Assembly (NCBI RefSeq): GCF_010725885.1
Contig: NZ_AP022600.1
Coordinates: 6,262,001 to 6,326,000, forward strand
From: Mycolicibacterium tokaiense
GTDB taxonomy: Bacteria > Actinomycetota > Actinomycetes > Mycobacteriales > Mycobacteriaceae
Direction: 5' to 3'
Length of the DNA: 64,000 bases
Below the pieces are notes generated by a model. The model was not told the DNA's origin. It searched no databases and saw only the letters and a program-made list of their open reading frames with translations. Positions within the stretch are counted from its first letter, which is position 1. Each line of letters opens with the position of its first letter. Shown piece by piece: positions 16,115 to 35,720 of the stretch. A program made the position numbers and the translations under genes.

Positions 16115-17788
16115 CTAGTCGCGTGTCAGCCGTCGGTGGGTAACCCGGTGTGGACGCGCTGCTTCGGCACCGAGTCTTTCGATCTTGTTCTCCTCGTAGC
16201 CGCCGAAGTTGCCCTCGAACCAGAACCACTTGGCCTCGTTGTCCTCGTCACCCTCCCAGGCCAGGATGTGGGTGCAGGTGCGGTCGAGGAACCAGCGATC
16301 GTGGGAGATCACCACAGCGCAGCCGGGGAAGTTCTCCAGCGCGTTCTCCAGCGAACTCAGCGTCTCGACGTCGAGGTCGTTGGTGGGCTCGTCCAGCAGG
16401 ATCAGGTTGCCGCCCTCTTTGAGGGTCAGTGCCAGGTTCAGCCGGTTGCGCTCACCACCGGAGAGCACCCCGGCGGGCTTCTGCTGATCCGGGCCCTTGA
16501 AGCCGAAGGCGGACACGTAGGCCCTCGACGGCACCTCGTTCTGGCCGACCTCGATGTAGTCCAGGCCGTCGGAGACGACCTCCCAGACGTTCTTGTTGGG
16601 ATCGATGCGCGAGCGACTCTGGTCGACATAGGACAGCTTGACCGTCTCGCCCACCTTGACGGTGCCGCTGTCCGGTTCCTCGAGGCCGACGATGGTCTTG
16701 AACAGCGTGGTCTTGCCGACACCGTTGGGGCCGATGACGCCGACGATGCCGTTGCGGGGCAGCGTGAACGACAGGTCCTTGATCAGGATGCGGCCGTCGA
16801 AGCCCTTGTCGAGATGGCTGACCTCGACCACCGTGTTGCCCAGCCGGGGGCCGGTGGGGATCTGGATCTCCTCGAAGTCGAGCTTCCTGGTCTTCTCGGC
16901 CTCCGTCACCATCTCTTCGTACCGGGTCAGGCGGGCCTTGTTCTTGGCCTGGCGGGCCTTGGCGCCGGAACGCACCCAGGCCAGCTCCTCCTTGAGGCGC
17001 TTCTGCAGCTTCTGGTCCTTCTTGCCCTGCACCGCGAGGCGTTCGGCCTTCTTCTCCAGGTAGGTGGAGTAGTTGCCCTCATAGGGGTAGGCCCGGCCGC
17101 GGTCGAGTTCGAGGATCCATTCGGCCACGTTGTCCAGGAAGTACCGGTCGTGGGTGACGGCCAGGATGGCGCCCGGGTAGGAGGCCAGGTGCTGCTCGAG
17201 CCACAGCACGCTCTCGGCGTCCAGGTGGTTGGTGGGCTCGTCGAGGAGCAGCAGATCCGGCTTGCTCAGCAGCAGCTTGCACAGCGCGACACGACGCTTC
17301 TCACCGCCGGAGAGGTGGGTGACGGGCTCGTCCGGCGGCGGGCAGCGCAGCGCGTCCATGGCCTGCTCCAGCTGGGAGTCGATGTCCCAGGCGTCGGCGG
17401 CGTCCAGCTCCTCCTGGAGCTGACCCATCTCTTCCATGAGCTCGTCGGTGTAGTCGGTGGCCATCAGTTCGGCCACCTCGTTGTACCGATTGAGCTTGCC
17501 CTTGATCGGCACGCCCTCTTCGACGTTCTCGCGCACCGTCTTGCTCTCGTCGAGCAGCGGTTCCTGCATCAGGATGCCGACCGTGGCGCCGGTGGCCAGG
17601 AAGGCGTCACCGTTGTTGGGCTTGTCGGTGCCCGCCATGATCTTCAGGACGCTGGACTTGCCGGCGCCGTTGGGGCCGACGACGCCGATCTTGGCGCCAG
17701 GAAGAAAGTTCAGGGTGACGTCATCGAGGATGACCTTGTCGCCGTGGGCCTTGCGGACCTTCTTCATCGTGTAGATGAACTCAGCCAT
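16115..17788 (-). CDS. ettA: ABC-F ATPase, EttA-type translation factor
   Basis: A 557-residue protein with two ABC cassettes and no membrane domain. The Walker A motifs are GPNGAGKSS near residue 40 and GPNGVGKTT near 350. The signatures LSGGEKRRVALCKLLLS and LSGGERNRLNLALTL are each followed by a Walker B of the form LLLDEPTNHLD or ILLDEPTNDLD. The charged linker between them fits the EttA subgroup, which binds the ribosomal E site and gates elongation according to ATP/ADP. It is orthologous in position to Rv2477c. The accessory block 17874-24265 begins immediately upstream, where ssbB would be expected. Confidence 0.93.
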   Translation of the reverse strand: MAEFIYTMKKVRKAHGDKVILDDVTLNFLPGAKIGVVGPNGAGKSSVLKIMAGTDKPNNGDAFLATGATVGILMQEPLLDESKTVRENVEEGVPIKGKLNRYNEVAELMATDYTDELMEEMGQLQEELDAADAWDIDSQLEQAMDALRCPPPDEPVTHLSGGEKRRVALCKLLLSKPDLLLLDEPTNHLDAESVLWLEQHLASYPGAILAVTHDRYFLDNVAEWILELDRGRAYPYEGNYSTYLEKKAERLAVQGKKDQKLQKRLKEELAWVRSGAKARQAKNKARLTRYEEMVTEAEKTRKLDFEEIQIPTGPRLGNTVVEVSHLDKGFDGRILIKDLSFTLPRNGIVGVIGPNGVGKTTLFKTIVGLEEPDSGTVKVGETVKLSYVDQSRSRIDPNKNVWEVVSDGLDYIEVGQNEVPSRAYVSAFGFKGPDQQKPAGVLSGGERNRLNLALTLKEGGNLILLDEPTNDLDVETLSSLENALENFPGCAVVISHDRWFLDRTCTHILAWEGDEDNEAKWFWFEGNFGGYEENKIERLGAEAARPHRVTHRRLTRD

Positions 17789-17873: not shown

Positions 17874-19001
17874 TCAGGTGCTCATGGTCACGACGGCGCG
17901 GCCCTGGATCTCCCCTCTGGCCAGCGCGTCGAAGGCATCGCCCGCGGTCTCGAGGGAGTAGGTCCGCGTGACGGTGTCCTGGACCGAGAATACGCCGGTG
18001 GCGGCGAGCTCGATGACAGCAGGCAGGTCGTGGCGGGTGCGGCCCCCGAACGAACCCAGGATCCGGTAGCCGCGACGCACCAGCGGAGTGATCTCGATGT
18101 TGGCACTCGACTGGCCCGCCGCGATGCCGACCGCCACCATTCGACCGCCGTCGGTCAGCATCCTGACCGCCTGCTCGAAGGTCTGCTGTCGCCCCAGCAC
18201 CTCGAAGGCGACGTCCACCCCGGCGCCGTCGGTGAGCTCGCGCACCGCGGCCACCGCGTCCCCCGTCGCCGAGTTGACCACGTGGTCAGCGCCCAGTTTC
18301 CGTGCCGCATCCAGCTTTTCGTCACTGACATCGACGGCGATGACGGTCTCGGCGCCGGCGGCGCGGGCCAGTTGCACGATGGCCGACCCCACTCCCCCGG
18401 TGGCGACCACGGCCACCGTCTCCCCGGCCTGCAACCCGGCGGTCTGGTGCACGGCACCGTAGGCGGTGAAGAAGGCGCAGCCCAGCACGGCGGCCTGGGC
18501 CTCCGGGACCTCGCCGCGCAGCGGTGCCAGCGCGTTCACCGGGACCACGCTGTATTCGGCCAGCCCGGCCATCGAGTACATCGCCAGCGGGGTCCCGTCG
18601 CTGCGCTGCAGGCGGGTGGTGCCGTCGTAGAGCGCACCCTTGAGCCGGTTCTCGGCGAAGAACGGCAGACACATGTCGTCGCGCCCGCGCAGGCACTGCC
18701 GGCATTCACCGCAGGGCATGATGAACGCCCCGACCACCGTCGCTCCGACCTCGACGCCGCGGGCCGGGTCGGTGCCGGGCCCCAGCGCCACCACGGTGCC
18801 GGAGATCTCGTGGCCGAGCACCGCCGGCGAGGGGAACGCCACCTCGCCTTTCATCACGTGCAGGTCGGTGTGGCAGACCCCGCACGCGGTCACCTTGACC
18901 AGGGCTTCGCCCTGCTTGGGCTGCGGTACCGGGATCTGTTCGGTCTGCAGAGTGGGGCCGTCACCGGTCCAGACCGCTGCGCGCATCGTGTCGGGCGTCA
19001 T
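17874..19001 (-). CDS. Zinc-dependent alcohol dehydrogenase
   Basis: A 375-residue medium-chain dehydrogenase. Catalytic zinc ligands are Cys 40 in CGVCHTD and His 64/Glu 65 in GHE; the structural zinc site is CGECRQCLRGRDDMC near residues 95-110. A Rossmann motif (VVATGGVGSAIVQLARAAG) is followed by IAVDVS, whose Asp at the strand end suggests NAD preference. I start at ATG 18999-19001 with GGACGG upstream; the longer ORF adds 26 His/Arg-rich residues unlike the family. It is the last gene of the PucR-linked operon, 29 bases after the MFS gene, and probably oxidises an alcohol made or taken up by the pathway. Confidence 0.9.
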   Translation of the reverse strand: MTPDTMRAAVWTGDGPTLQTEQIPVPQPKQGEALVKVTACGVCHTDLHVMKGEVAFPSPAVLGHEISGTVVALGPGTDPARGVEVGATVVGAFIMPCGECRQCLRGRDDMCLPFFAENRLKGALYDGTTRLQRSDGTPLAMYSMAGLAEYSVVPVNALAPLRGEVPEAQAAVLGCAFFTAYGAVHQTAGLQAGETVAVVATGGVGSAIVQLARAAGAETVIAVDVSDEKLDAARKLGADHVVNSATGDAVAAVRELTDGAGVDVAFEVLGRQQTFEQAVRMLTDGGRMVAVGIAAGQSSANIEITPLVRRGYRILGSFGGRTRHDLPAVIELAATGVFSVQDTVTRTYSLETAGDAFDALARGEIQGRAVVTMST

Positions 19002-19030
19002 GTCGTCCGTCCCTTCGTTGGGGTGTGGCA

Positions 19031-20317
19031 TCACTGTGCGGTGATGGTGCGGCCGGCGGTGTCGGGTACGAACAGACATCCAATCAAGCCCAGCGCCGCA
19101 CCGATACCACCCAGGGCCAGTGCGAAGCGCAGATCGCCGCCGGCGAGGGTGAGGGCGAACAGCGGGTACAGGCCCGAACCGAGCCCGCGGGCGACGTAAT
19201 AGGTGGCGTTGGAGCCCAGTGCACGGAAGCGGGTGGGGTAGAACTCCGAGATCCAGGTCCCCAGCACGCCGAAGCCGGCGTAGCCGATCGCGGTGCCGGC
19301 CAGTGCGATGACGCCGACGGTCACCGACCCGTTGCTGCCCAGGGCGAAGGCACCGAAGCCGGCCACGCCGACCAGGCAGGCGTACATGGTGGAGCGGCGC
19401 CGACCCACCCGGTCGGAGAGGGCGCCGAACACGATGTAGCTGCCGATCCCCAGCAGCGTGCCGATGGTCAGCACCACCGTCGACACGCCCAGCGAGAGCC
19501 CCAGGGTCTGACGCAGGAAGGTCGGCGCGAACGTGATGTAGGAGTAGCTGGCGGCGAACACGCCGGTGGTGCAGATGGTGAGGAACACCGCACCCCAGGC
19601 CAGCCGCTTGCCGCGGAGGTCATCGGTCTCCGCGGTGGGGCCCGGATCGACGCCGTGCCCGTGGGGCATCGTGCGGCTGGCCTGCCACAGCTTGGATTCC
19701 GGGAGCCAGAAGTACGCGGCGACGGCGATGGCCAGACAGCCCACGCCGATCACGGCGAACCCGATGCGCCAGCCCGCGTCGGAGCCCAGGGTGGAGATGG
19801 TGGTGAACAGGATGATCTGCGTGAGCAGCTGGCCCGCGATGAACATGGCCTGCAGCACCGAGCCCATGAAGCCACGCTTACGGGACTTCCAGCTCTCGGC
19901 GAACATGGCGAACAGCACCCCGAATGCTCCGCCCATGGCCACGCCCGCGATCACCCGGGTGACCACGAAGGTGTCGAAATCCGACAGCGTGCTGCCGATG
20001 ATCGCCGCGATCGAGTAACTCGCCGTGAACAGGATGTAGGACGGTTTGCGCCCGAATCTGTCAGCGATCCAGCCGAACAGGAAGCCGCCCACGATCGACG
20101 CGAGACTCTGGGCAGTGATCGCCGCCACCACCTGCTGGTTGGTGACACCGAACGACTGGGCCAGGTCCGACATGGGGAAGCTCAGCAGGTTGAGCTCCAT
20201 GCTCTCGATGAGCGCGCCCACCACCGCGAAGATCAGCACGAATCGGCGCTCGCGCGGGGTGTACGCCGTTGCCGCGGTCAGCTGTGACACTCGGCCGGCA
20301 TCAACGGAATTGGTCAT
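19031..20317 (-). CDS. MFS transporter, aromatic acid/metabolite:H+ symporter type
   Basis: A 428-residue major facilitator protein with about 12 predicted membrane helices. It shows the family loop 2-3 motif GWIADRFGRKPSYI and its repeat GALSDRVGRRRSTM after helix 8. The long cytoplasmic loop between helices 6 and 7 (PESKLWQASRTMPHGHGVDPG) resembles sugar/aromatic acid symporters. The gene begins inside the FAH gene stop (ATGA overlap at 20314-20317), so it is translated with the catabolic genes and probably imports their substrate. Confidence 0.88.
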   Translation of the reverse strand: MTNSVDAGRVSQLTAATAYTPRERRFVLIFAVVGALIESMELNLLSFPMSDLAQSFGVTNQQVVAAITAQSLASIVGGFLFGWIADRFGRKPSYILFTASYSIAAIIGSTLSDFDTFVVTRVIAGVAMGGAFGVLFAMFAESWKSRKRGFMGSVLQAMFIAGQLLTQIILFTTISTLGSDAGWRIGFAVIGVGCLAIAVAAYFWLPESKLWQASRTMPHGHGVDPGPTAETDDLRGKRLAWGAVFLTICTTGVFAASYSYITFAPTFLRQTLGLSLGVSTVVLTIGTLLGIGSYIVFGALSDRVGRRRSTMYACLVGVAGFGAFALGSNGSVTVGVIALAGTAIGYAGFGVLGTWISEFYPTRFRALGSNATYYVARGLGSGLYPLFALTLAGGDLRFALALGGIGAALGLIGCLFVPDTAGRTITAQ

Positions 20318-21195
20318 GAGGCACCTTTGCCAGAAAGCGAATGTGGTTGATTCAGGTGTTCCGGGACGTACATGTCGTGGCGCATCGACCCGATGCCTTC
20401 GATGGTGGTGACGATGGTGTCGCCGTCGACGAGATAGCTCGGGGGTGTGCGCCCCAGGCCCACGCCCTCCGGGGTGCCGGTGAAGATGAGGTCACCGGGC
20501 AGCAGCGTGACGATGCTCGAGAGGTAGGCGATGAGCTCCGGCACGCTGAACACCAGGTCGGAGGTGCGGGAGTCCTGGACCGTGACGCCGTTGAGGTCGG
20601 TGCTGACCCGCAGATCGTCGGGGTCGGCGAACTCCTCGATGGTGACCAGCGCGGGGCCGATGGGCGCGAACCCGGGGAAGGACTTGCCCATGCTGAATTG
20701 CGGCGGGCTGCCCGCGGTCTGCACGGTGCGGTCCGAAAGATCCTGTCCCACAGTCAGTCCCGCAACATGGTCCCATGCCTGGGTGACGTCGACCCGGTGG
20801 GCGGGGGTGCCGATGACGGCGACCAGTTCCACCTCCCAGTCCACCGTGTCACCGGTGAGGGCGATCCGCCCGGACGGACCGGTGACCGCGCTCTGGAATT
20901 TGGTGAAGACCATCGGCTGCTCGGGAATCGGCAGGTTGGATTCGTGTGCGTGGCGGACGTAGTTCAACCCGATGGCGAAGATCTGCCGAGGGCGGGGCAC
21001 CGGCGCGCCGAGGTCGGCGTCGTCGAAGGGCCGTGCCTGCCCCTGTGCGCCGCGGGCCCACTGCAGAAAGGCCGGCCAGTCGTCGAACGCCGACTGCGGA
21101 TCGGGGCCGAACCGGCCCCCGCTGGCGGTGTGGACATCGAGTGCGCCCCCGTCACACAACAGGACGAGACGGTCATCGAGATTGGCTATCCGCAT
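20314..21195 (-). CDS. Fumarylacetoacetate hydrolase (FAH) family protein
   Basis: A 293-residue FAH-fold enzyme. The metal site is visible as the acidic pair in DWEVELVAVIG near residue 125 and the Asp in GLTVGQDLSDR near 155; IFAIGLNYVRHAHE and LIFTGTPEGVGLGR are the conserved strands of the family. Members hydrolyse or decarboxylate ring-cleavage products and 2-oxo acids (fumarylpyruvate, 2-hydroxyhepta-2,4-dienedioate, oxaloacetate). The exact reaction cannot be read from sequence. It overlaps the preceding EthD-like gene by 10 bases and the MFS gene by four. Confidence 0.88.
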   Translation of the reverse strand: MRIANLDDRLVLLCDGGALDVHTASGGRFGPDPQSAFDDWPAFLQWARGAQGQARPFDDADLGAPVPRPRQIFAIGLNYVRHAHESNLPIPEQPMVFTKFQSAVTGPSGRIALTGDTVDWEVELVAVIGTPAHRVDVTQAWDHVAGLTVGQDLSDRTVQTAGSPPQFSMGKSFPGFAPIGPALVTIEEFADPDDLRVSTDLNGVTVQDSRTSDLVFSVPELIAYLSSIVTLLPGDLIFTGTPEGVGLGRTPPSYLVDGDTIVTTIEGIGSMRHDMYVPEHLNQPHSLSGKGAS

Positions 21196-21929
21196 GCGGG
21201 CTCCTGGTCGGGTGAGGTCGAACGCAGTTCGTAGATGAGGGTGAAGACGCGATGCGGCGCCACCGGCCGGATCACGACGCCGGCCTGGGCCGAGCGTGCC
21301 ACCAGCTCGTCGGCCACCAGGGCTGCGTCGGCACCAGTGTGCAACTCGGCGAGGATCACGCTGGCGGCGGCCCGCTGCTGGTCCGAAGATCGCCCCTCGG
21401 CGGTGGCGTTTTTCGCATCGCTGACCGCGAGGTCCGGCTCGTACAGTGATGCCGCCACCAGGTGGTGCTCGGTGATCAGCGATCCGAAGACGTCGCCGCC
21501 GAGCTTATCGCGCAGACGGTCGGGATCGACGTCGGACTCGATCTCCAGCGCGACCACCCGACCGGCGGAACCGTGCCCGCGGGCCACGGTGACCCGGCAG
21601 GCCGCCCGGCGGAATTCCGCGAACAGCGGCACCACCTCGAGCGTGAGGTCGGTCGGATTGTCCAGGCGCCGCAGATATTCCGGGGAGGCCAGGACACTGA
21701 CGTCGGTGGTTTCGTACAGGGTGAGGAAGTCGCAGCTCTTGTTGTCGGCCTGGTCGGTGGCACTGAAGCGGCGGGCGCGCAGGAACCCCGGGGTGGACAC
21801 CCGCTCCGGCAGGTGCTGGTAGTTGTACCAGTCCTCGTAGATCGGCAGGTTCTCCCGGGCCACCGTGATCCAGTTGATCATGGCGCCGGCACCGACCACC
21901 GATTCGAAGACCGGCCTGGTCAGTGTCAT
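21186..21929 (-). CDS. EthD-like / dimeric alpha-beta barrel protein
   Basis: A 247-residue protein. The N-terminal half has the dimeric alpha-beta barrel signature seen in EthD and related proteins (YEDWYNYQHLPERVSTPGFLRARRF, then LTLYETTDVSVLASPEYL). A second, more weakly similar half (VVALEIESDVDPDRLRDKLG to HRVFTLIYEL) suggests a duplicated barrel. EthD-type proteins accompany oxidative catabolic enzymes and may remove reactive intermediates; the role here is unproven. ATG 21929 shares its A with the upstream stop (TGATG), so translation is coupled. The 23 extra residues upstream are rejected as shadow sequence. Confidence 0.7.
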   Translation of the reverse strand: MTLTRPVFESVVGAGAMINWITVARENLPIYEDWYNYQHLPERVSTPGFLRARRFSATDQADNKSCDFLTLYETTDVSVLASPEYLRRLDNPTDLTLEVVPLFAEFRRAACRVTVARGHGSAGRVVALEIESDVDPDRLRDKLGGDVFGSLITEHHLVAASLYEPDLAVSDAKNATAEGRSSDQQRAAASVILAELHTGADAALVADELVARSAQAGVVIRPVAPHRVFTLIYELRSTSPDQEPACG

Positions 21930-22945
21930 CAGAACGCGCCCTGACGCTGCTGGAACTTGGTGGGTTTGCCGATCAGCGGCTTGGCCGCGTCCACCCATTC
22001 GGCCACGGTGTCGATCATCTGCGGGACTGTGGTTGTGGGGTAACCGAATTCGGACTGCAGCGCCGATCCGTCCATGACGTAGGCGGTTCCGCTCTCCTGG
22101 CCGTCGAAGATGGGGGCACGTCCGAACCGCTCGCCGAATCGTTCGGCCAGCCAGCGGATGGAGACGATCTCCGGGCCGGTGATGTTCAGCGCCCGCGGCG
22201 GGCTGGTCGCCAAAGTGACCGAGCGCAGGGCGTATTCGGCGACATCGCGCTGCCAGATGACGCTGGCGTGTCCCATCTCCAGGGGGATGGGGGTGCCGTC
22301 GTGGACCGCCTGCGCAATCTCCTGCAGCACGCCGTAGCGGGTCTCGATGGAGTATCCGAGCCGGAACAGCAGCACCGGCGTGCCGTGCTTGCGGGAGAAG
22401 TGCTCGAACATCCGCTCCCTGCCGACGCAGGAGGCGGCGTACTCGCCGACGGGGCCGGACGGGTCGGATTCGCGGGAGCCGCCGGTGGCGACGTCGGCCA
22501 GCGGATAGGTGACCAGGGTGGAGAACACCACGATGCGTGACGCGCGGAACCGCTGCGCCACCCGCCCCGGCAGGTAGGAGTTCATCATCCAGGTGAAGTG
22601 CTCGTTGCCGACGGTGCCGAACTTGTTGCCGGCCATGTAGATGACGTTCGCGGCGTCGGGGATGGCGTCGAGTTCGAGGTCGTCGGTCAGGTCGGCCGTG
22701 ACGGCGGTGACGCCCGCACGCTCCAGCGAGGCCTTGGCCGCCGGGTCGGAGAAGCGGGCCACGCCGTAGACCAACTTGTCGACGCCGGCGGCCTCGACGG
22801 CGCGCTGCGCCATGATCGCCACGCTCGGACCGACCTTGCCGCCGACCCCCAGCACCGTGATGTCACCATCCAGGGTCGCGATCTCCTCGATCAGCGCCTG
22901 CGACGGTGTGGTGAGTTCGCGTTCGATCTCGTCGATGACCGTCAT
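21929..22945 (-). CDS. NAD(P)-dependent epimerase/dehydratase (extended SDR)
   Basis: A 338-residue extended-SDR protein. The Rossmann strand and glycine loop are ITVLGVGGKVGPSVAIMAQ near residue 30; later segments IVVFSTLVTYP, REGxM-like VGRERMFEHFSRKHGTPVLLFRLGYS, and ALNITGPEIVSIRWLAERFG fit NAD-epimerase family proteins. The canonical YxxxK is replaced by a YAASCVGRE stretch, so the active site is uncertain. ATG 22945 has a strong ribosome site (GGAGGAACC at 22952-22960). It is the first gene of the operon and is divergent from the PucR-type regulator with 105-108 bases between. Confidence 0.82.
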   Translation of the reverse strand: MTVIDEIERELTTPSQALIEEIATLDGDITVLGVGGKVGPSVAIMAQRAVEAAGVDKLVYGVARFSDPAAKASLERAGVTAVTADLTDDLELDAIPDAANVIYMAGNKFGTVGNEHFTWMMNSYLPGRVAQRFRASRIVVFSTLVTYPLADVATGGSRESDPSGPVGEYAASCVGRERMFEHFSRKHGTPVLLFRLGYSIETRYGVLQEIAQAVHDGTPIPLEMGHASVIWQRDVAEYALRSVTLATSPPRALNITGPEIVSIRWLAERFGERFGRAPIFDGQESGTAYVMDGSALQSEFGYPTTTVPQMIDTVAEWVDAAKPLIGKPTKFQQRQGAF

Positions 22946-22986
22946 CGTCACGGTTCCTCCTGAAGTTCGCGTGGTCGTGTCCCCCA

Positions 22987-23002
22987 TCACAGTGCTCTGT
23001 GA
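22987..23002. promoter_or_regulatory. Perfect palindrome TCACAG-N4-CTGTGA, candidate PucR operator
   Basis: The 16-base site has perfect 6-base arms around TGCT and lies in the divergent region between the catabolic operon and the PucR-type gene. A second dyad with the same half-site core, TGTGA-N5-TCACA, is at 23050-23064 and covers the regulator start codon. The pairing of a regulator gene with two related dyads suggests autoregulation and operon control. Confidence 0.55.
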
Positions 23003-23053
23003 GAACTACTAAGTCGACCCGGATTTTCCCAACGTTTTTTGTAGTCTGTTGTG

Positions 23054-24265
23054 ATGGTTTCACAGCATCTCCCGGATTATGCGCCCGACTTGGTGGAGCT
23101 GACGCAGCGGGCGGCGGAGCTGATGTGGCACATCTACCCCGGGTACTCCGAGGACCGCTTCGGCCACGACGAATTGATGCCCTCGGTGCGAGCGAACCTC
23201 GACCTCGCGGTGGCAGTGGTGCGCCGCAACCGCGAGCCCACCGCCGCCGAATTGGCCCCGGCGCGGGCGCTGGGCACCCGGCGCGCCAGCCAGTCGGTGC
23301 CCCTGGAGTCGGTGATCCAGGCCTACCGTTCGACCGAACGGGTGATCCTGCTCGACCTGGTGGCCGACTCCCGGGCCTGGCCGCAGCAGCAGGCCAACCG
23401 CCGGGCCGACCTGGTGATCACCACCTTCGATCTGCTCACCGACGAGATGATCAACGCCTACCGCGATACGTCGTCGGCCATCGAGGCCACCCGCAGGCGA
23501 ACCGAGAACGAGCTGGTCAATGCACTGGCGAGCGGGCACCCGGTGACTTCGGCCGAGCTGCAGCAGTGGGCGCACACCCTGCAGATCGACGCAGCCGTGA
23601 ATTGGTTCGCCTTTGCCCTGTTGGGCGGCAGCCAGGCCGATCCGCTGGATCTGCAGCGTCTGCGACGCCGACTGGCCGCCCAACTGCAGCCGCACACCAC
23701 CCACATCGTCTTCGGCGACGTCGGCGAGGCGACCGTCGCTCTGGCCGCCCTGCGTTCAGCGGGCACCGAACCGCGCGCCATCCTCTCCCAGGCCTTGCCG
23801 AACCTCAGCAGCACCACTGTGATCTATTGCGGCATCGGACAATTCAGCGACAACCTGGCCGCTGCGGGGGAATCCTGCCGCCAGTCCTTGGAGGCGGTAC
23901 GCGCTGCAGCTGCCGGCACCGCCGCATCCGGCGCCACCATCGTCGACTACCGGGAGGCACTGCTGGAGATCCTGCTCAGCAGTCGCCCCGCGGTCGCCGA
24001 CACCCTGGTGACGACCCGTCTGCGGCCACTGTCGGACCACCCGCACCTGGCGCAGACGATGGAAGCGCTGTTGGCCAACGACCTGTCGCAGTCCCGGGTG
24101 GCACGTGAGCTGTTCGTGCACGTGAACACCGTCAATCACCGCGTCAAACGCATCCGTGAGATCACCGGCCTGGACCTGACCCGGTTCCCCGATGCGATGG
24201 AGGCGGCGTTGGCGCTGCGGTGGCACAGGCTCACCGAGCAGGGCCGCACGGCCACCGCCCGGTGA
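23054..24265 (+). CDS. PucR/CdaR-type transcriptional regulator
   Basis: A 403-residue regulator. The C-terminal 60 residues hold the PucR helix-turn-helix: LRPLSDHPHLAQTMEALLANDLSQSRVARELFVHVNTVNHRVKRIREITG. The middle is a GGDEF-like degenerate regulatory domain typical of the family, and the N-terminal region (SQSVPLESVIQAYRSTERVILLDLV) resembles the RsbR/DUF5593-type sensor segment of mycobacterial members. It lacks a purine-catabolism neighbour, so the name describes the fold and not its ligand. Start ATG 23054; a GTG at 23051 is equivalent. It probably controls the divergent operon at 17874-22945. Confidence 0.88.
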   Translation: MVSQHLPDYAPDLVELTQRAAELMWHIYPGYSEDRFGHDELMPSVRANLDLAVAVVRRNREPTAAELAPARALGTRRASQSVPLESVIQAYRSTERVILLDLVADSRAWPQQQANRRADLVITTFDLLTDEMINAYRDTSSAIEATRRRTENELVNALASGHPVTSAELQQWAHTLQIDAAVNWFAFALLGGSQADPLDLQRLRRRLAAQLQPHTTHIVFGDVGEATVALAALRSAGTEPRAILSQALPNLSSTTVIYCGIGQFSDNLAAAGESCRQSLEAVRAAAAGTAASGATIVDYREALLEILLSSRPAVADTLVTTRLRPLSDHPHLAQTMEALLANDLSQSRVARELFVHVNTVNHRVKRIREITGLDLTRFPDAMEAALALRWHRLTEQGRTATAR

Positions 24266-24713: not shown

Positions 24714-24886
24714 CGTGGTGTCCCTTCATTCGGTGCATCGATGCGCCCCGAGCGGTGGCGCTGACCTCACCGTCGACCCCCATACCGACACCGCAACGAC
24801 GCCACGGGCGGTTGCCCGTGTTACCTGTGGATGAAGTCCTGACTGTGGAGTCGCACAAATACCTGTCGAGCGCTAGGTTTACCGGC

Positions 24887-26527
24887 ATGTCATCCCACAG
24901 CGCTGTATGGATCACGCGTCGGGACCCCGCCGAGGTCGAATCCGCCCTGCTCACCAGCCGTGCCGAGGGCGGCGCGCTGGCCGGACTCCGGGTGGCGGTC
25001 AAGGACAACGTCGACGTCGCCGGGCTGCCCACCACCGCGGGATGTCCCGAATTCGCCTACCAGCCGTGCGCTGACGCCCCGGTGGTGGCAGGCCTGCGCT
25101 CCGCCGGCGCGGTGGTGGTCGGCAAGACCAACCTGGATCAGTTCGCCACCGGCCTGGTCGGCACCCGCTCCCCCTACGGCGCCGTGCCCGACAGCCGCAG
25201 GCCCGAGTACGTCAGTGGCGGTTCGAGTTCGGGCTCTGCGGTGGCGGTGGCCCTCGGCGAGGCCGACATTGCCATCGGCACCGATACCGCGGGGTCCGGG
25301 CGCATCCCGGCGGCATTCCAGGGGCTGGTGGGCATCAAGCCCACCTACGGCGTGCTCAGCACCCAGGGCATCGTGCCGGCTTGCGAGTCCTACGACTGCC
25401 CGACGATCTTCGCCCGCGACCTCGACACCGCCAACCGGGCGATGGCCGCCATGGCCGGCGGAGCTCCCCATCGCAGCTGGCCCGCCGATGTGCGGCTGGC
25501 CGCGCCCGAACATCCGGTGGTTGCCGTCCCCGATGAGCTGCCCGAGCTGGACGCCTCCTGGCGCAGCGCCTTCCAGGACGCAGTGCAGCATCTGGAGGCC
25601 GCGGGCGCACAGATCGTCACCGTCCAGATCGCTCCGTTCCTGGCTGCGGCCAAGCTGCTCTACGATGGCGCGCTGGTCAGCGAAAGATACGCCGCGGTGG
25701 GCGAGTTCATCGATGCGCATCCGGATGCCGCGGTGGATCCGACTGTCGGTGGCATCATCACCGCTGCGCGCGACATCCCGGCGCACCGCCTGATCCGCGA
25801 CCGGGGCGAGCTCGAACGGTTGCGCGCGGTGGCCATGGCGCAACTCGACGGTGCGGACGCCCTGCTGGTGCCCACCGCGCCCAACCATCCCCGCATCGAC
25901 GAGGTGGCCGCCGACCCGGTGGGCGTCAACTCCCGGCTGGGCACCTACACCAACTTCTGCAACCTCTTCGACATGTGCGCTGTGGCAGTGCCTTTCGGCA
26001 TGGCCGGCGACGCGCAGTTCGGGGTGTCGGTGCTGGCGCGCACCTTCGAGGACGCCGTGGCCTTCGACATCGCCGCCATGATCACCGGAGACGATGTGCC
26101 GCAGGACATCTGGCCCACCGGCCCGGCCGGCAGCCTGGAGCTGGTGGTGTTCGGGGCGCACCTGCGCGGCGGGGTCCTGGTGCATCAGCTGACCGATCTC
26201 GGCGCCCGGTGGGCCGGTGAGCTGACCACCGCGCCGCGCTACCGGATGACCGCCATGCAGACCACGCCGCCCAAGCCGGCCATCGTGCGGGTTCCCGACG
26301 ACGTCGCCGGGACGGCGATCCTGGGACACCGGTGGTTGCTCTCCCCCGCGGCGCTGGGCACCTTCCTGACCGCCCTGCCCGCGCCGATGCAGCTGGGCAA
26401 GGTCGAGTTCGACGACGGCACGTGGCGGACCGCGTTCGGGTGCGACGGATACGCTGCCGCCGCAGGCAAGGACATCAGCTCGTTCGGGAGTTGGCCCGCC
26501 GCCATCGCCGCGGGCGCATTGAGTTAA
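24887..26527 (+). CDS. Allophanate hydrolase
   Basis: A 546-residue enzyme that hydrolyses allophanate to ammonia and CO2. The amidase-signature domain covers about residues 20-430, with the catalytic Lys in VAVKDNVDVAG, the Ser-rich GGSSSGSAVAVALGEADIAIGTDTAGSGRIPAAFQGLVG, and so the Ser-cisSer-Lys triad. The C-terminal domain of about 120 residues (LVVFGAHLRGGVLVHQLTD to SFGSWPAAIAAG) is the allophanate-hydrolase-specific decarboxylating domain. I start at ATG 24887; the 62 residues upstream overlap ssbB sequence and are unrelated. No urea carboxylase, cyanuric acid hydrolase or urea transporter is present in the window, so the source of allophanate is unclear. Confidence 0.9.
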   Translation: MSSHSAVWITRRDPAEVESALLTSRAEGGALAGLRVAVKDNVDVAGLPTTAGCPEFAYQPCADAPVVAGLRSAGAVVVGKTNLDQFATGLVGTRSPYGAVPDSRRPEYVSGGSSSGSAVAVALGEADIAIGTDTAGSGRIPAAFQGLVGIKPTYGVLSTQGIVPACESYDCPTIFARDLDTANRAMAAMAGGAPHRSWPADVRLAAPEHPVVAVPDELPELDASWRSAFQDAVQHLEAAGAQIVTVQIAPFLAAAKLLYDGALVSERYAAVGEFIDAHPDAAVDPTVGGIITAARDIPAHRLIRDRGELERLRAVAMAQLDGADALLVPTAPNHPRIDEVAADPVGVNSRLGTYTNFCNLFDMCAVAVPFGMAGDAQFGVSVLARTFEDAVAFDIAAMITGDDVPQDIWPTGPAGSLELVVFGAHLRGGVLVHQLTDLGARWAGELTTAPRYRMTAMQTTPPKPAIVRVPDDVAGTAILGHRWLLSPAALGTFLTALPAPMQLGKVEFDDGTWRTAFGCDGYAAAAGKDISSFGSWPAAIAAGALS

Positions 26528-26981: not shown

Positions 26982-28055
26982 CTAGATCTTGAACCGCCCC
27001 GCGAACCCCCGCAACGGCAGGTCGGCGCTGGTGAGCAGGCCCGGCGGCGCCGCCACCACGGAGCTGATGGCGTGCAGCGCGGGCATGCCGGTGACCGTCA
27101 TGCCGATGGAGGCAAAGTTGGCCGGCTCGGAGAGATCGACGCCCGGCTTCGGGAAGATCATGTGCTTGTTGTAAATGCAGGGGTCACCCTTGATCTGGGT
27201 GATGTAGCAGCCCTTGATGTCCCAGCTGGGATCGGTGTGCGGTGTCATCTGCCACTCCAGGTGCGTCTCCACCCGCGCCACCCCGTCGACCATGCCCTGG
27301 TATTTGATGTAGTTGCCGCCCAGTGAGCCCTTGGGCAGGACGTACCAGCCCAAGTCGACGTCCTTGGTGCACGCGCCCAGTTCGTAGGAGAACGTCACCT
27401 CGTCGAGCTCCAGCCCGAAACAATCGGCCATCATCAGCACGCTGTCGGCGAATACCCGGGTGTACTTCTCCAGCTTGTCCGGAATCGACGGATCATCAAC
27501 GGGAAGACCGTATCCCACCTCGATCCAGGTCTCCTTGGAATGGTGGCACGACACGTCCACAGACTCGATGGTGGTGACGTTCTCGATCTCGGCGACGTCA
27601 GCCGAGCACACCACGCCCAGGATCTGGTTCACCCCGGGGTTCATCCCGGTGCCGTAGAACGTCGACCCGCCCTTCGCACACGCCTCCGCGAGCAACTCCG
27701 ACACCAGCTTGCCCGAGGGGTGGGGGTGGTTGTGATCACGATGCCAGCCGGTGATCCAGTCGGCGGTGGTGACGATGTTGATACCGGCTTCGAGAACCTT
27801 CACGTAGAGGTCCTCGTCCGGGAACACGCCGTGGAAGGTCAGGACGTCCGGCCGCGCGGCGATGATGTCCTCGACGGTGCCGGTGGCGATCACGCCGTTA
27901 GGAGCGATACCCGCCAGCTCACCGGCGTCGCGTCCGATCTTCTCTGGTGAATAACAGTGCACGCCAACCAGTTCCAGGTCGGGCTCGAGGGCGATCCGCT
28001 TGATCATCTCCGAGCCGACGTTGCCGGTCGCCACCTGGAACACTCGTATTGTCAT
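26982..28055 (-). CDS. Dihydrodipicolinate reductase-like NAD(P)-binding protein
   Basis: A 357-residue protein with a DapB-like N-terminal Rossmann fold (IRVFQVATGNVGSEMIKRIALEPDLELVGVHCYSPEKIGRDAGELAGI). A middle catalytic-like domain contains TGMNPGVNQIL and GYGLPVDDPSIP. Mycobacteria carry many paralogues, often annotated as dihydrodipicolinate reductase or amine dehydrogenase-like, commonly beside Rieske oxygenases or steroid genes; the substrate is unknown. Its ATG (28053-28055) overlaps the stop of the Rieske gene in an ATGA, so the two are translationally coupled. Confidence 0.85.
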   Translation of the reverse strand: MTIRVFQVATGNVGSEMIKRIALEPDLELVGVHCYSPEKIGRDAGELAGIAPNGVIATGTVEDIIAARPDVLTFHGVFPDEDLYVKVLEAGINIVTTADWITGWHRDHNHPHPSGKLVSELLAEACAKGGSTFYGTGMNPGVNQILGVVCSADVAEIENVTTIESVDVSCHHSKETWIEVGYGLPVDDPSIPDKLEKYTRVFADSVLMMADCFGLELDEVTFSYELGACTKDVDLGWYVLPKGSLGGNYIKYQGMVDGVARVETHLEWQMTPHTDPSWDIKGCYITQIKGDPCIYNKHMIFPKPGVDLSEPANFASIGMTVTGMPALHAISSVVAAPPGLLTSADLPLRGFAGRFKI

Positions 28056-29083
28056 CGCAACGCCTCCCTGGTCTTCGCGTGTAGGTCGGCAGCGGAACCA
28101 CCGAGTCCGTCGGGGTAGAACTGCATCGCCCAGGTGCGGATGGCGGTGAAGCCCCGTAACTCCGAGCTCGACAGCGCGGGCGGATCGGAGTACCGCTGGT
28201 GCGACCAGATGTGAACGTCCTGGGCGAACTGCCGGATCACCTCGTCGCCGAATTCCCGCGCCTTCGCCTCGTGCCGCGGCTGGTCCTTGCCGGGGGTGCG
28301 GCCGATGTAGACGGTAAAGCGTACGTCGGAGGTGGTGTCGTCAACGGGTGTCACCGCCGATATGGTGCGGTTGTCCACCATCCCCCAGCTCTTGGTGACC
28401 GCCACCCCCAGCCCGCCGTTGATGGCCTCGACCCCGCTGCGGACGTCGTCGATGGACTGAAACTCATCACCTTCGAAGGTGATTGTGAAATCCACGTAGG
28501 ACACCGGTCCGGCGAAATCGTGCCGGGTGAACACAGGCACGATGGGCGTCTGGTGCACGTACTTGAAGTGGGCGAAGTCCACACCGTTCTCCAGGACGTA
28601 CTGCGGATGCAGCTCCAGCGCTTGGCGATACAGCCGCTGCTGCGGGTAGTAGTCGGCCGCGGTGGCACCGTCACCGAAGTCGGCGAAGATGTCCGGCGCA
28701 TCGAAGAACGGGACACGCCCCTCGGTGTCATGCCACATGTAGATCGAGCCGTTGCGTTCGGCCACCGGGTACGTGGCCATCCGCCGGCCGCGATTGGGCC
28801 TGTCCTCGTAGGGAATACAGACGTTGCGGCCCTCGGCGTTCCATTGCCACCCGTGGAACGGGCACTGGATGACCTCGCCCTCGACGTGCCCGCCGAAACC
28901 CAGGTGCGCGCCAAGGTGTTCACAGTAGGCGGCCATGACGGTCACGCGTCCGGACTGTGCGCGCCAGGCGATGAGTTCCTCACCGAAGTACTTCATGGGC
29001 AGGACGTCACCGACGGCCAGCTCGTCGGACCAGGCGACCTGGAACCACCCGGTGGGCTTCATCGACAGCGGCGGTTTCGCCAT
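28052..29083 (-). CDS. Rieske non-haem iron oxygenase, KshA-like
   Basis: A 343-residue oxygenase component. The Rieske [2Fe-2S] ligands are Cys 54/His 56 (CEH) and Cys 74/His 77 (CPFH). The mononuclear iron site is the VDFAHFKYVH segment near residues 170-180, with an Asp and two His. The opening sequence (PTGWFQVAWSDELAVGDVLPMKYFGEELIAWRAQSG) is that of the 3-ketosteroid 9-alpha-hydroxylase (KshA) subfamily, so a steroid or related hydrophobic ring compound is a reasonable guess. A reductase (KshB) would be needed and is not encoded here. ATG 29083 is chosen because the longer ORF adds 150 residues unlike any oxygenase. A TetR gene is divergent 46 bases away. Confidence 0.9.
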   Translation of the reverse strand: MAKPPLSMKPTGWFQVAWSDELAVGDVLPMKYFGEELIAWRAQSGRVTVMAAYCEHLGAHLGFGGHVEGEVIQCPFHGWQWNAEGRNVCIPYEDRPNRGRRMATYPVAERNGSIYMWHDTEGRVPFFDAPDIFADFGDGATAADYYPQQRLYRQALELHPQYVLENGVDFAHFKYVHQTPIVPVFTRHDFAGPVSYVDFTITFEGDEFQSIDDVRSGVEAINGGLGVAVTKSWGMVDNRTISAVTPVDDTTSDVRFTVYIGRTPGKDQPRHEAKAREFGDEVIRQFAQDVHIWSHQRYSDPPALSSSELRGFTAIRTWAMQFYPDGLGGSAADLHAKTREALR

Positions 29084-31812: not shown

Positions 31813-34164
31813 CTACAGCGGGTCGGACTTCGTCCGTGATCGCCGTTCCCGCTCGACGAACTGCTCGCGGGAGATGGCGTCGATGCTGTCCATGTCGGTC
31901 AGCACCCCGCGCAGCTCCGTGAGGAATGCCGACCGTCGCTCGGCCAGGTCGGGCGCGGCGGCCAGCAGCCCCTGGTCGGCGGCCACCTGCCGCGCGGTGG
32001 CGAACAGCAGCGCCGACACCGACTCGGTGGTGCGCACCCGGTGTTGGGCGGCGTGCTGAGCACCTACCCCCAGCGCCAGATCCGTGAGTTCCTTGGCATC
32101 GATGTCCGGGGAGGCGCCGCGCAGCACATCGGCGACGATCTCGTAGGCCTCGAAGTAGGGCCGCAGCATCGCGTGTGCCATCAGTGGCCGCTTGTCGTAC
32201 AGCAGGGTGGTGATCTCGTCACCACCGACGGCCACATGACCCTCCCAATCCTGATGCCAGGCCATCTCCTCGGCGATGTTGGCCCGGAAGGCCGCGGTGT
32301 CGGCGAAATAGAAGTCGAACTTCAGCAGATCCCGCAGCCGCATCGCCTGGGTCCAGAACGCCGCCAGCCGGTCACCGTCGGCGCGGGCGGCGTAGGCCAG
32401 CGCCAGTTCGACGATCGAGGTCTCCAGGAACGCGTGGATCAGGGTGTTGCGGTAGAACGCCCCCTCGTGCTGGTGCTCGGGGGCGATGCGCCAGACCGGT
32501 TCGCGCCCGCCGTCCACGCGGGTGATCGGATGACCCCCGGAGAGCGCGTCCAGCGCGGCGCGCACCCCCTCCGGTGTCCGGAGCCGACGCGCACTGTCGG
32601 TGACGGGGGTCTGCTTACGCTCCAGGTAGTCCAGCGAGTCCTGCATGGTGTGGTGGACCTGGTTGAGCGTCAGGGCAATACCGTTGGTGGTCAACAACAG
32701 TGCGGCCACCAAGCCGCTGGCATTGATGGGTGTCACCCGCAGAATCCGCCAGGCGACTTCGAAGGCCATCTTCTGCATCGCCAGCCGCGTTGCCTGCGAA
32801 TCGATCTCGGCGCCGTCCTCGCCCGGGATGCCGAGGTACTGACGCATGGACACCGCTTCCGGGAAGCGGACGTAGATCTTGCCGTAGTTGCGTTCCTTCT
32901 GTGCCTTGATGAAGTTGTAGAGCCAGCCCACCCCTTCGGGCGCCTTCTCGCCGCCGCGAGCGTACGCGGCGTACTCGGCAATCTCGTGCAACTGGTCGAA
33001 GCTGATCGAGACCGGCTGCAGCAGGATGTCCTCGCTGCGCCCCTCCAGGTAGGCGTCGGCGACGTAGGCCAGCAGGCCGAGCTTGGGCGGCAACATCTTT
33101 CCGGTGCGCGAGCGCGTCCCCTCGATGGACCAGCTGAGATTGAACCGCTTCTCGACGATGTAGCCGACGAACTCGCGCAGCACGTACTTGTAGAGGGGAT
33201 CGTCGAGGCGGCGCCGGATGAAGATCACCCCGGAGCGGCGCAGCAACGGACCCATGGGCCAGAACGACATGTTGATGCCCGCGAACAGATTGACCCGGGG
33301 CAGGCGGTTCTCCTGCAGGGCCACGGTCAGAACGGCGCTGTCGAGGTTGGAACGGTGCGACCACAACATCACCGCGGGATGGGTCTCCAGGGCGTGCCGC
33401 ATGGCCTCGACCTGCTCGGCGTCGTAGTCGATGTGAGGGTCGAAACCGCGGCTGTAGAGGAACTTCGAGAAGTTGGGAATGAGGTCCACCGAGAACCGGC
33501 TCCACCCGGTGGCGAGTTCGTCGAGGATCTCGCCGGCCGAGTCGACGTCGGCGCCGGGGATCTTGTCCAGGCCGGACCGGAAGCGGGCCGAGGCCAGCAT
33601 CTCGGGCTTGACCAGCCGCGGGGACTTGTATTCCGGTCCCAGCAGCCGGTATTCGATGCGTTCGATGGCCAGGCTGGCCCGGCGGAGCACGAAGCGGGCG
33701 AAGTCACGGGGACTGTCGCCGACGGTGGTGTCCTGGAACTGCTGACGCAGCTCGGAGACCTTTGCCGGTTCACCGGCCACCACCGTTGCCCGCGACTGGT
33801 CACGACGAAGGATGCGGCGCTGCAACAACTCCGGTGGCCGGTAGGTGTCCCGGCCCGACAGCAGACCGACCACCTTCACCCGGGTGGGCAGTCCGCCGGG
33901 AGCCCAGAAGACTCGGACCGGCACAACCGAGCGGTCCTCCCCCTCGGAGAGTTCGTTCACCAGCTCGGCGATCACTCCCGCCGGGGGTTCCTCGTCTTCA
34001 CCCGGCAGTTGCAGCACCGCCAGTTTGAGGTCGGGGTGGCGGGTGCGCTGGCGGTGGATCCAGCCGTCGAGCAGATCGTGTTCGGCCGGGGACGAGACCG
34101 ACGCCAGGATCAATGAATCATCGGTGATCTCGACGACCGGCACGTCGTAAGGTTCCGGGCTCAT
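31813..34164 (-). CDS. plsB2: Glycerol-3-phosphate acyltransferase PlsB2
   Basis: A 783-residue membrane-associated enzyme acylating glycerol-3-phosphate at the first step of phospholipid and triacylglycerol synthesis. The acyltransferase motifs are visible: HRSNLD (HX4D) near residue 268, with motif II ([19 protein letters not shown]) and the motif [19 protein letters not shown]. Length fits Rv2482c. The ATG overlaps the plsC stop in an ATGA (34161-34164), so the genes are translationally coupled. Confidence 0.93.
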
Positions 34165-35720
34165 GGCCGGGCCTTCTTCGGCGCTGCCTTCTTGGCGGCC
34201 TTCTTGGCGGCTTTCCTCGCCGGCTTCTTGGTGGGCGCATCATGGAGATACGGTGCGGCTTCCGGTAATTCATCCTCGGGCCAGTTGACCAGGGTGTCGA
34301 GGTAGAGCTGGCGGACTTCGGCGATGCGCTCGTCGATGTTGTCCACCGTCCAGTCCGCCATCGAGATCGGCGGGAAGACCGCGACGTCGACGGTGCCCGG
34401 GTTCATCACCGATGAGTCCCGGGCAGCGATCACCTCGGCGTTGCGGATCACCACCGGGATCACCGGGACACCAGCTGCCATGGCGATGCGGAACGGGCCC
34501 TTCTTGAAAGGGCCCACTTCATGGGTGTCCAACCGGGTGCCCTCCGGTGCGATCACGATGGACAGCCCGTTGCGAGCAGCATCCTCCACCTTGCGCAGCG
34601 ACTCGACCGCTGACTTGGGGTCGTCGCGGTCGATGAACACCGCGTCGATGAGCCGGCCCAGATTACCCACCAGCGGGTCGTTCTCGAGTTCCTTCTTCGC
34701 CACGCTCGTGAAGTTGTCGCGTACCAGGGAACAGGTGATCACCGGGTCGAAGTTGTTGCGGTGGTTGAAGATGAACACCGCAGGCCGCTGCGCGGTGAGG
34801 TTTTCCCGGCCCAGGACGTTGAGCTGCACCCCGCTGGCCGCCAGCAGGGTCTGCGGCCAGTTGGCGGTGAAGAAGTTGACCCCTCGGCGCCGGCTGCGGG
34901 TGAGCAGACCCCAGCCGAGCGCCCCGTAGCCCACCGGCACCATCGATCCCACCCCGGCCAAGGTGCGTACCACACCGCTCAGGCTGCTGCCACCGCGGCT
35001 GGAGAAGCGCAGGATGGGCCAACCACGTTGGCGCGCAACAGCAGCCATCTTGCCCTCGGGGTTGGTGGGCCGCGGATTGCCCACCAGGTACATCAGCGCC
35101 ACATCCTCGTCACCGTCGGCGTAGAAGTAGCTGTCCTGCAGGTCGATGTCGTGCTCGGCGGCGAACTTCTGCACGGCATTGGCCTTGCCCGGCCCCCACA
35201 GGATCGGTTCGACGATGGTGCCGGCGACCACGCCGTCGTCATCGACGACGAACTTGTTGGTCAGGGTGTTGGGGATCCCGAGGAAGCGCGCCACCGGCTC
35301 GACCTGGATGGTCAGCGCCGAGGAACTCAGGCAGACGGTGTGGCCACGTTCGAGGTGGGCGCGCACCAGCTCCCGCATCTCGGGGTAGATCCGCGACTCG
35401 ATCTTCTGCCGGAACAGCCGCTCCCCCAGCTGGTCCAGATCTGACAGCGGACGCCCCCGCATGACCTTCGAGGCCGCCGTGATGAGGTTCTCGAACTCGC
35501 GCCGCCCCAGTTTGTGATTCAACCCGGCCTGGATCATGCCGAAGAAGTCGGCGACGCCGAGCTGACGGGACAGGAACTGCTCCTGGGTCAGGATGACGCC
35601 GGTGAAGCCGGCCACCAGCGTGCCGTCCAGGTCGAAGAAGGCGCCGATGTGCGGTCCGCGCGGACTGGCTCTGACCTCGGCCACCGAACCGGGAAGGCGC
35701 ATGTCTCTGGGACCCGTCAT
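34161..35720 (-). CDS. plsC: Bifunctional HAD phosphatase / 1-acylglycerol-3-phosphate acyltransferase
   Basis: A 519-residue two-domain protein. Residues of about 20-250 form a HAD-IB phosphatase-like domain with [12 protein letters not shown] near residue 28, [11 protein letters not shown] and [11 protein letters not shown]. From about 300 the LPLAT domain carries [10 protein letters not shown] (HX4D) and [20 protein letters not shown], ending in a Lys/Ala-rich tail. It should convert lysophosphatidate to phosphatidate, and the HAD domain might act on a phospho-intermediate, as proposed for Rv2483c. Its start overlaps the stop of the WS/DGAT gene in an ATGA at 35717-35720. Confidence 0.92.

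Follow-up and report, generated by a model that had tools for sequence, protein, structure and literature searches.

The window considered here, that is the whole stretch of DNA that was analysed, comprises bases 6262001-6326000 (64 kb) of the closed 6.33 Mb genome of Mycolicibacterium tokaiense, and the element in question is a block of six genes between an ABC-F ATPase gene and ssbB. A plus-strand gene for a PucR-type regulator faces five minus-strand genes, which encode an atypical extended short-chain dehydrogenase/reductase (SDR), an EthD-like protein, a hydrolase of the fumarylacetoacetate hydrolase (FAH) superfamily, a carrier of the major facilitator superfamily (MFS) and a zinc-dependent alcohol dehydrogenase (ADH). 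The features, in window positions, are the following.

16115..17788, minus strand: ABC-F ATPase gene (flank); adjoins ssbB in 14/15 relatives
17874..19001 (about), minus strand: zinc-dependent medium-chain ADH, 375 aa; ADH_N 84 bits, ADH_zinc_N 131 bits
19031..20317, minus strand: MFS carrier, 428 aa; MFS_1 146 bits
20314..21195, minus strand: FAH-superfamily hydrolase, 293 aa; PF01557 218.3 bits
21186..21929, minus strand: EthD-like tandem ferredoxin-fold protein, 247 aa; from predicted structure and fold matches
21929..22945, minus strand: atypical extended SDR with YxxSC replacing YxxxK, 338 aa; Pfam Epimerase, narrowly
22987..23002, no strand: perfect dyad TCACAG-TGCT-CTGTGA directly upstream of the SDR gene, read off the sequence
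23023..23036, minus strand: AACGTTGGGAAAAT stretch, with an identical copy ahead of the SDR gene in Sinomonas; from sequence comparison
23050..23064, no strand: TGTG-N7-CACA dyad over the PucR start, candidate operator, found by pattern match
23054..24265, plus strand: PucR-type regulator, divergent from the operon; Pfam HTH_30 67.8 bits, GGDEF_2 36.2 bits
24273..24713, minus strand: ssbB (flank), from the ssbB homology search

The six genes, with their coordinates and strands, are those that a sequence-only reading of this DNA had listed, and the junctions it described can all be read: the SDR stop and the EthD-like start overlap as TGATG at 21929, the EthD-like and FAH genes overlap by 10 bases (21186-21195), FAH and MFS meet in ATGA (20314-20317), and a gap of 29 bases separates the MFS stop (19031) from the ATG of the ADH gene (19001). 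The exact start of the latter is not proven, as its frame has further upstream starts at 19031 and 19079. Pfam assignments are firm for four of the block's proteins (ADH, MFS, FAH and PucR). The proposal of a regulated catabolic operon made up of a carrier, dehydrogenases and a hydrolase of the FAH type is upheld, and the gene order recurs in other genomes, as described below, beyond what chance would give; in its general kind the operon is a familiar one. A promoter and terminator scan gave nothing above chance.

Insertion site and recurrence

The block is an insertion into the junction between the ABC-F gene and ssbB. A search of 31 genomes, the window's own included, matched ssbB in 16 of them at E<=1e-40, and in 14 of the 15 relatives thus found the ABC-F match starts within about 0.3 kb of ssbB, so that the view of the sequence-only reading that the block was inserted between these two genes is upheld; for the fifteenth relative (L086) no ABC-F match was found within the short flank that was fetched. 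In an alignment of ten of the 15 relatives' junctions, the block is flanked by the stop codon of ssbB and, on its other side, by the conserved CCTAGGATG stretch, which precedes ABC-F and is retained. Neither junction of the block carries an informative direct repeat, no integrase marks the route of its arrival, and there is no step in composition, the GC content being 0.65-0.72 over the block and similar in the flanks.

The search for the same gene order elsewhere, which had been proposed along with the sequence-only reading, found PucR facing SDR-EthD-FAH-MFS in four other genomes, namely Sinomonas atrocyanea DS1018 (L002), Saccharopolyspora sp. NFXS83 (L007), and the genomes G344 (L044) and G442 (L046). 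In all four, whose loci were fully read, the PucR gene diverges from the other genes, and the ADH gene comes next in L007 and L044, whereas it does not in L002 and L046; in Saccharopolyspora an aldehyde dehydrogenase (ALDH) gene is added after it. Identities to the window's proteins are 74-79% for SDR, 34-57% for EthD, 54-71% for FAH, 59-72% for MFS, 66-68% for ADH and 35-57% for the PucR-family regulator in its corresponding position. Neither ABC-F nor ssbB is present in any of these four stretches, and the same gene set therefore occupies different chromosomal places. The operon appears to have spread laterally among soil actinobacteria as a catabolic unit.

As a marker of the operon the EthD-like gene serves best. 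Among 297 genomes of the same genus a strong match was found in the window's own genome alone, any match (E<=1e-6) in 11, the next best at 2e-21. Order-wide, 20 of 397 genomes had any match and four a strong one (E<=1e-40), these being the window's own, G344, G647 and G442, while four of 394 genomes matched class-wide at E<=1e-15, one of them on a 3.1 kb contig without readable neighbours; six loci came from one scan across species genomes. The SDR was found phylum-wide in two of 396 genomes (E<=1e-50), and no SDR relative at least 60% identical was present among 72,556 plasmid records. FAH is common by itself, with matches at E<=1e-70 in 74 of the 301 genomes searched in the family, and for that reason is not diagnostic of the operon. 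More distant, partial loci hold SDR, EthD and FAH in Neorhizobium, SDR and EthD in a metagenome-assembled genome of the Burkholderiales, and EthD and FAH in G647 and Caballeronia, and these carry other transporters and regulators; SDR, EthD and FAH thus look like the core, with an exchangeable carrier and regulator. EthD-like genes were also seen in other arrangements. In L045 (8696-13188) an EthD-FAH pair lies between two FAD_binding_2 proteins, with short SDRs, an MFS carrier and beta-oxidation genes, which is a different pathway context; the Pseudonocardia loci L003 and L004 each have two EthD-like genes within a conserved set, which in L003 includes Gfo/Idh, amidohydrolase, alpha/beta hydrolase, SDR and E1 dehydrogenase genes.

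The regulatory region and the encoded proteins

The TGTG-N7-CACA dyad at the PucR start is a candidate PucR operator, judged from its sequence and position. The pattern was picked after inspection of the sequence, and its single exact match in the window (64 kb) compares with a chance expectation of 1.32; it is the placement that matters and not the count. At the corresponding place it is exact in L002, L044 and L046 (which has a second match far off) and has one mismatch in L007. The same 15 bases occur in the window and in L002, and as they are partly coding this identity could be explained by coding conservation; L044 and L046, by contrast, keep the dyad with other letters. The AACGTTGGGAAAAT stretch is exact in the window and in Sinomonas, and absent from L007, L044 and L046.

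In the FAH protein, which matches PF01557 far above the cut-off of 23.9 bits, His82 and Glu85 align with the NYxxHxxE position, and Glu121, Glu123 and Asp152 align with the metal site and are presumably the metal ligands, as in the family. The intact dyad and metal ligands support the remark in the sequence-only reading that this enzyme may act on a 2-oxo acid. Its closest solved structure is 6v77, matched with 306.6 bits over residues 1-272 with the dyad segment aligned; the title of that entry ('putative HpcE protein') names no function, so it provides no substrate for the window's enzyme. The second structure match is 8gsr, an L-2,4-diketo-3-deoxyrhamnonate hydrolase (172.6 bits), with the segment HAxESNLPIP common to both.

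The name 'EthD-like' given by the sequence-only reading fits the fold and not the family. A confident structure model (pLDDT 89.9) has a tandem ferredoxin-like, dimeric alpha/beta-barrel fold; the protein clears no Pfam family, the sole one listed being DUF4286 with 17.4 bits against a cut-off of 25.8. Residues W34, H39, E42 and R43 are invariant in an alignment of 31 rows, which included 30 of 56 homologues. Sulfur oxygenase reductase, PenE, the anthrone oxidase-like 5f9p and bacterial chalcone isomerase have the same tandem barrel, at 5-13% identity and with no common function shown. I propose that the EthD-like protein is an isomerase or mutarotase-type enzyme.

The carrier scores under the cut-off of the NCBIfam metabolite/H+, sialate and aromatic-acid symporter subfamilies alike. 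The ADH has its ADH_N and ADH_zinc_N domains and the Cys/His motifs that provide the catalytic and structural zinc ligands. A mycofactocin-type ADH was considered and rejected: the best-listed NCBIfam model is the NDMA-dependent ADH (TIGR03989), yet the score is 240.2 against a cut-off of 440 bits.

The most unusual feature of the operon is its SDR, which belongs to a branch without the lysine on which SDR mechanisms are built. The protein clears Pfam Epimerase narrowly (25.5 against 20.9 bits), its AlphaFold model has the full extended-SDR fold (pLDDT 88.1), and the GxxGxxG nucleotide motif is present. The active-site Tyr169 is kept, and the lysine of YxxxK, four residues on, is absent, with Cys173 at its position. 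A homologue search that scored 8000 candidates gave 6635 sequences at E<=1e-20, and in the best 120 of these the lysine position holds 119 Cys, one Val and no Lys; ten plasmid-borne relatives (43-51% identical over nearly the full length) have eight Cys and two Val, the SDR from L059 having been left out of the count. Arg176, Glu177 and Arg178 beside the lost lysine are invariant in an alignment of 29 of the 120 homologues and six loci. The closest structure, TerB, an NADP-dependent oxidoreductase of terfestatin biosynthesis (6d2v, 6nd7), has Lys at the YxxxK position, in contrast to the Cys of the window's SDR family. A search of open-access full texts found no publication on SDRs with this lysine replaced by cysteine, and no published operon with this gene combination or with an EthD/PucR pairing.

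The neighbourhoods of distant SDR relatives were fetched for 10 of 25 plasmid records. A gene of the dihydrodipicolinate synthase (DHDPS) family lies near the SDR relative in eight of these ten loci (L050-L053, L088-L093), four genes off in the case of Prescottella; these eight loci, from Bacillota, Pseudomonadota and Actinomycetota, pair the YxxSC SDR with a divergent DHDPS-family gene, and the one DHDPS protein that was scanned had no more than a weak NCBIfam match (22.7 bits). One of the two haloarchaeal SDR loci has FAH adjoining the SDR, the other neither FAH nor DHDPS. Several loci of SDR relatives also hold sugar ABC transporters, Gfo/Idh oxidoreductases, sugar isomerases or mandelate-racemase genes. 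It is conceivable, although I consider it rather doubtful, that the SDR represents a large and mostly unstudied extended-SDR branch in which the lysine has become an almost invariant Cys in Y-x-x-S-C-x-G-R-E-R, that its chemistry may differ accordingly (cysteine-assisted aldehyde or lactone oxidation, for example, or non-redox isomerisation), and that it pairs with interchangeable C-C cleaving enzymes of the DHDPS or FAH type as a widespread acid-breakdown module. Naming the reaction of this branch would annotate many sequences that are now called 'NAD-dependent epimerase'.

Substrate and pathway

The reading that I tentatively prefer, as a possible though not yet a probable one, is a laterally spread operon for the breakdown of a small hydroxylated carboxylic acid, with cleavage of a 2,4-dioxo acid by FAH. 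In the scheme that I infer, from the class of substrate through the order of the steps to every reaction, PucR would sense the substrate or an intermediate and act at the divergent promoter, and the MFS carrier would import the hydroxylated acid. SDR and the EthD-like protein might perform the first redox and isomerisation steps, leading to a 4-hydroxy-2-oxo acid or directly to the 2,4-dioxo acid; FAH, with His82-Glu85 and a divalent metal, would then split the 2,4-dioxo (acylpyruvate) acid by hydrolysis at its C-C bond, which would yield pyruvate and another acid. For the zinc ADH two roles are conceivable, the formation of the dioxo acid by a 4-dehydrogenase activity and the oxidation of the hydroxy acid set free by FAH. 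The second role is fitted by the ALDH that follows ADH in the one genome of Saccharopolyspora, which clears the methylmalonate-semialdehyde dehydrogenase (MMSDH) model with 692 against 448.5 bits: by an MMSDH-type route a released 3-hydroxy acid would be converted to a semialdehyde (malonate- or methylmalonate-semialdehyde-like) and then to an acyl-CoA. The analysis establishes gene content, recurrent order, insertion site, folds and the intact residues of FAH and ADH. In favour of the scheme stand that recurrent order, the FAH match to 8gsr with its dyad and metal ligands, and the Neorhizobium FAH beside EthD-like and SDR genes, which scores 406.6 against 500 bits in the model for 2,4-didehydro-3-deoxy-L-rhamnonate hydrolase; so do the sugar-type genes near distant SDR relatives, where the presence of a DHDPS-family gene or of FAH parallels the alternatives of Route I and Route III discussed below.

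Several observations weigh against this scheme. The six genes include no sugar-acid dehydratase or lactonase, and the eight enolase-superfamily matches elsewhere in the genome are not linked to the operon. The FAH protein falls short of the equivalog model for 2,4-didehydro-3-deoxy-L-rhamnonate hydrolase, with 199.2 against 500 bits; this is far under the cut-off, so that the reaction type is supported and the substrate is not. The loss of the usual lysine makes the reaction of the SDR uncertain. Moreover, the ADH step must be dispensable in at least some of these genomes, because two of the four operons elsewhere lack the gene and the Sinomonas genome has no match to it at E<=1e-60. Lastly, among the neighbourhoods of distant EthD relatives, fetched for 6 of 60 plasmid records, five hold shikimate dehydrogenase or type II dehydroquinase, and one holds an intradiol dioxygenase.

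These last neighbourhoods keep a hydroaromatic acid possible as the substrate. By this account it would be a hydroaromatic or cyclitol-type ring acid (quinate-like), which SDR and the EthD-like protein oxidise and isomerise before FAH cleaves a ring-derived beta-diketone; two of the six neighbourhoods also have an FAH gene and one has inositol-type genes. However, the EthD relatives are just about 33-41% identical over part of their length, and none of those genes is present in the five conserved operons, so that this account appears rather unlikely. The loci of SDR relatives point to sugar-type acids where those of EthD relatives point to hydroaromatic acids, and I gave the former more weight, without taking them to settle the substrate, because the SDR is better conserved with respect to the window's protein. 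Less likely again is that FAH is a 2-keto-3-deoxy acid dehydratase of the Weimberg or Route II type, with an aldehyde dehydrogenase finishing the pathway. The DHDPS family, which takes the place of FAH near distant SDR relatives, also contains dehydratases, and the Saccharopolyspora ALDH adjoins ADH; this ALDH, however, scores 346.8 against 750 bits for 2,5-dioxovalerate dehydrogenase while it clears MMSDH. FAH-superfamily enzymes do act as such dehydratases according to an excerpt of PMC6336799, but the window's FAH has the His-Glu dyad described for hydrolases.

The sequence-only reading itself had pointed to uptake and degradation of a small aromatic or cyclic alcohol or acid; along this line, a further account has a small aromatic compound as the substrate, with FAH acting after ring cleavage by an enzyme encoded elsewhere. 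The resemblance of FAH to HpaG/HpcE, the similarity of the carrier to aromatic-acid symporters (106.9 of the required 418.55 bits) and the intradiol dioxygenase near one distant EthD relative would agree with this account, whereas no ring-cleaving dioxygenase was seen among those neighbours of the conserved operons in the four genomes that were scanned, and SDR relatives adjoin sugar-type genes; I regard an aromatic substrate as quite improbable. That the genes came together by chance or are in decay, and serve no single pathway, would fit the rarity of the block in the genus, as expected from a passing acquisition, but is hardly credible when the order is kept at 34-79% protein identity in four genomes and the active-site residues of FAH and ADH are kept as well.

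As an operon alone this is an ordinary find, since soil actinobacteria hold many uncharacterised catabolic sets; the testable claims it offers concern a gene set that is inserted and recurs, an FAH whose hydrolase dyad is intact, a candidate operator and a lysine-less SDR branch. Elsewhere in the window, an allophanate-hydrolase-like gene with Amidase and AH_C domains lies directly past ssbB (24827-26527, plus strand). It is followed on the minus strand by a DapB_N/2,4-diaminopentanoate-dehydrogenase-like oxidoreductase beside a Rieske oxygenase with a KshA-type C-terminal domain (26982-29083), and by three successive, lipid-storage-like acyltransferase genes of the GPAT type, an HAD-acyltransferase fusion and the WS/DGAT type (31813-37117).

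Relation to known systems

The nearest parallel to the tentatively preferred acid-breakdown scheme is Route III of L-rhamnose, L-fucose and pentose degradation (LRA5-LRA6, FucF-FucG and C785_RS13675/RS20555-RS20550), in which, as is proposed for the operon, pyruvate is released after a dehydrogenase step by an FAH hydrolase with a His-Glu dyad. Excerpts of PMC6336799 describe a Herbaspirillum FAH-superfamily hydrolase with this dyad that converts 5-hydroxy-2,4-dioxopentanoate to pyruvate and glycolate, and assign the dyad together with water to the pentose Route III hydrolase; a reference title in the same paper indicates that in one organism an enzyme of the medium-chain dehydrogenase/reductase (MDR) type can serve in the dehydrogenase step. 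According to an excerpt of PMC11199699 the fucose Route III starts with a mutarotase, and the choice between an aldolase and a dehydrogenase plus hydrolase is the known one between Route I and Route III. Nevertheless, although the operon would act like the last part of Route III, it does not belong to it, as it lacks a dehydratase and a lactonase, its FAH stays under the equivalog cut-off, and its only SDR is of the extended type with YxxSC, where Route III has a classical SDR 4-dehydrogenase; it also differs in its PucR regulator and MFS carrier. The pen operon for pentose in Rhodococcus jostii RHA1 is likewise actinobacterial and has SDR and FAH-family genes, but, as far as an excerpt of PMC11998424 goes, it differs from the window's operon by an ABC transporter, a FadR/GntR regulator, aldehyde dehydrogenases and a larger FAH gene (1188 bp).

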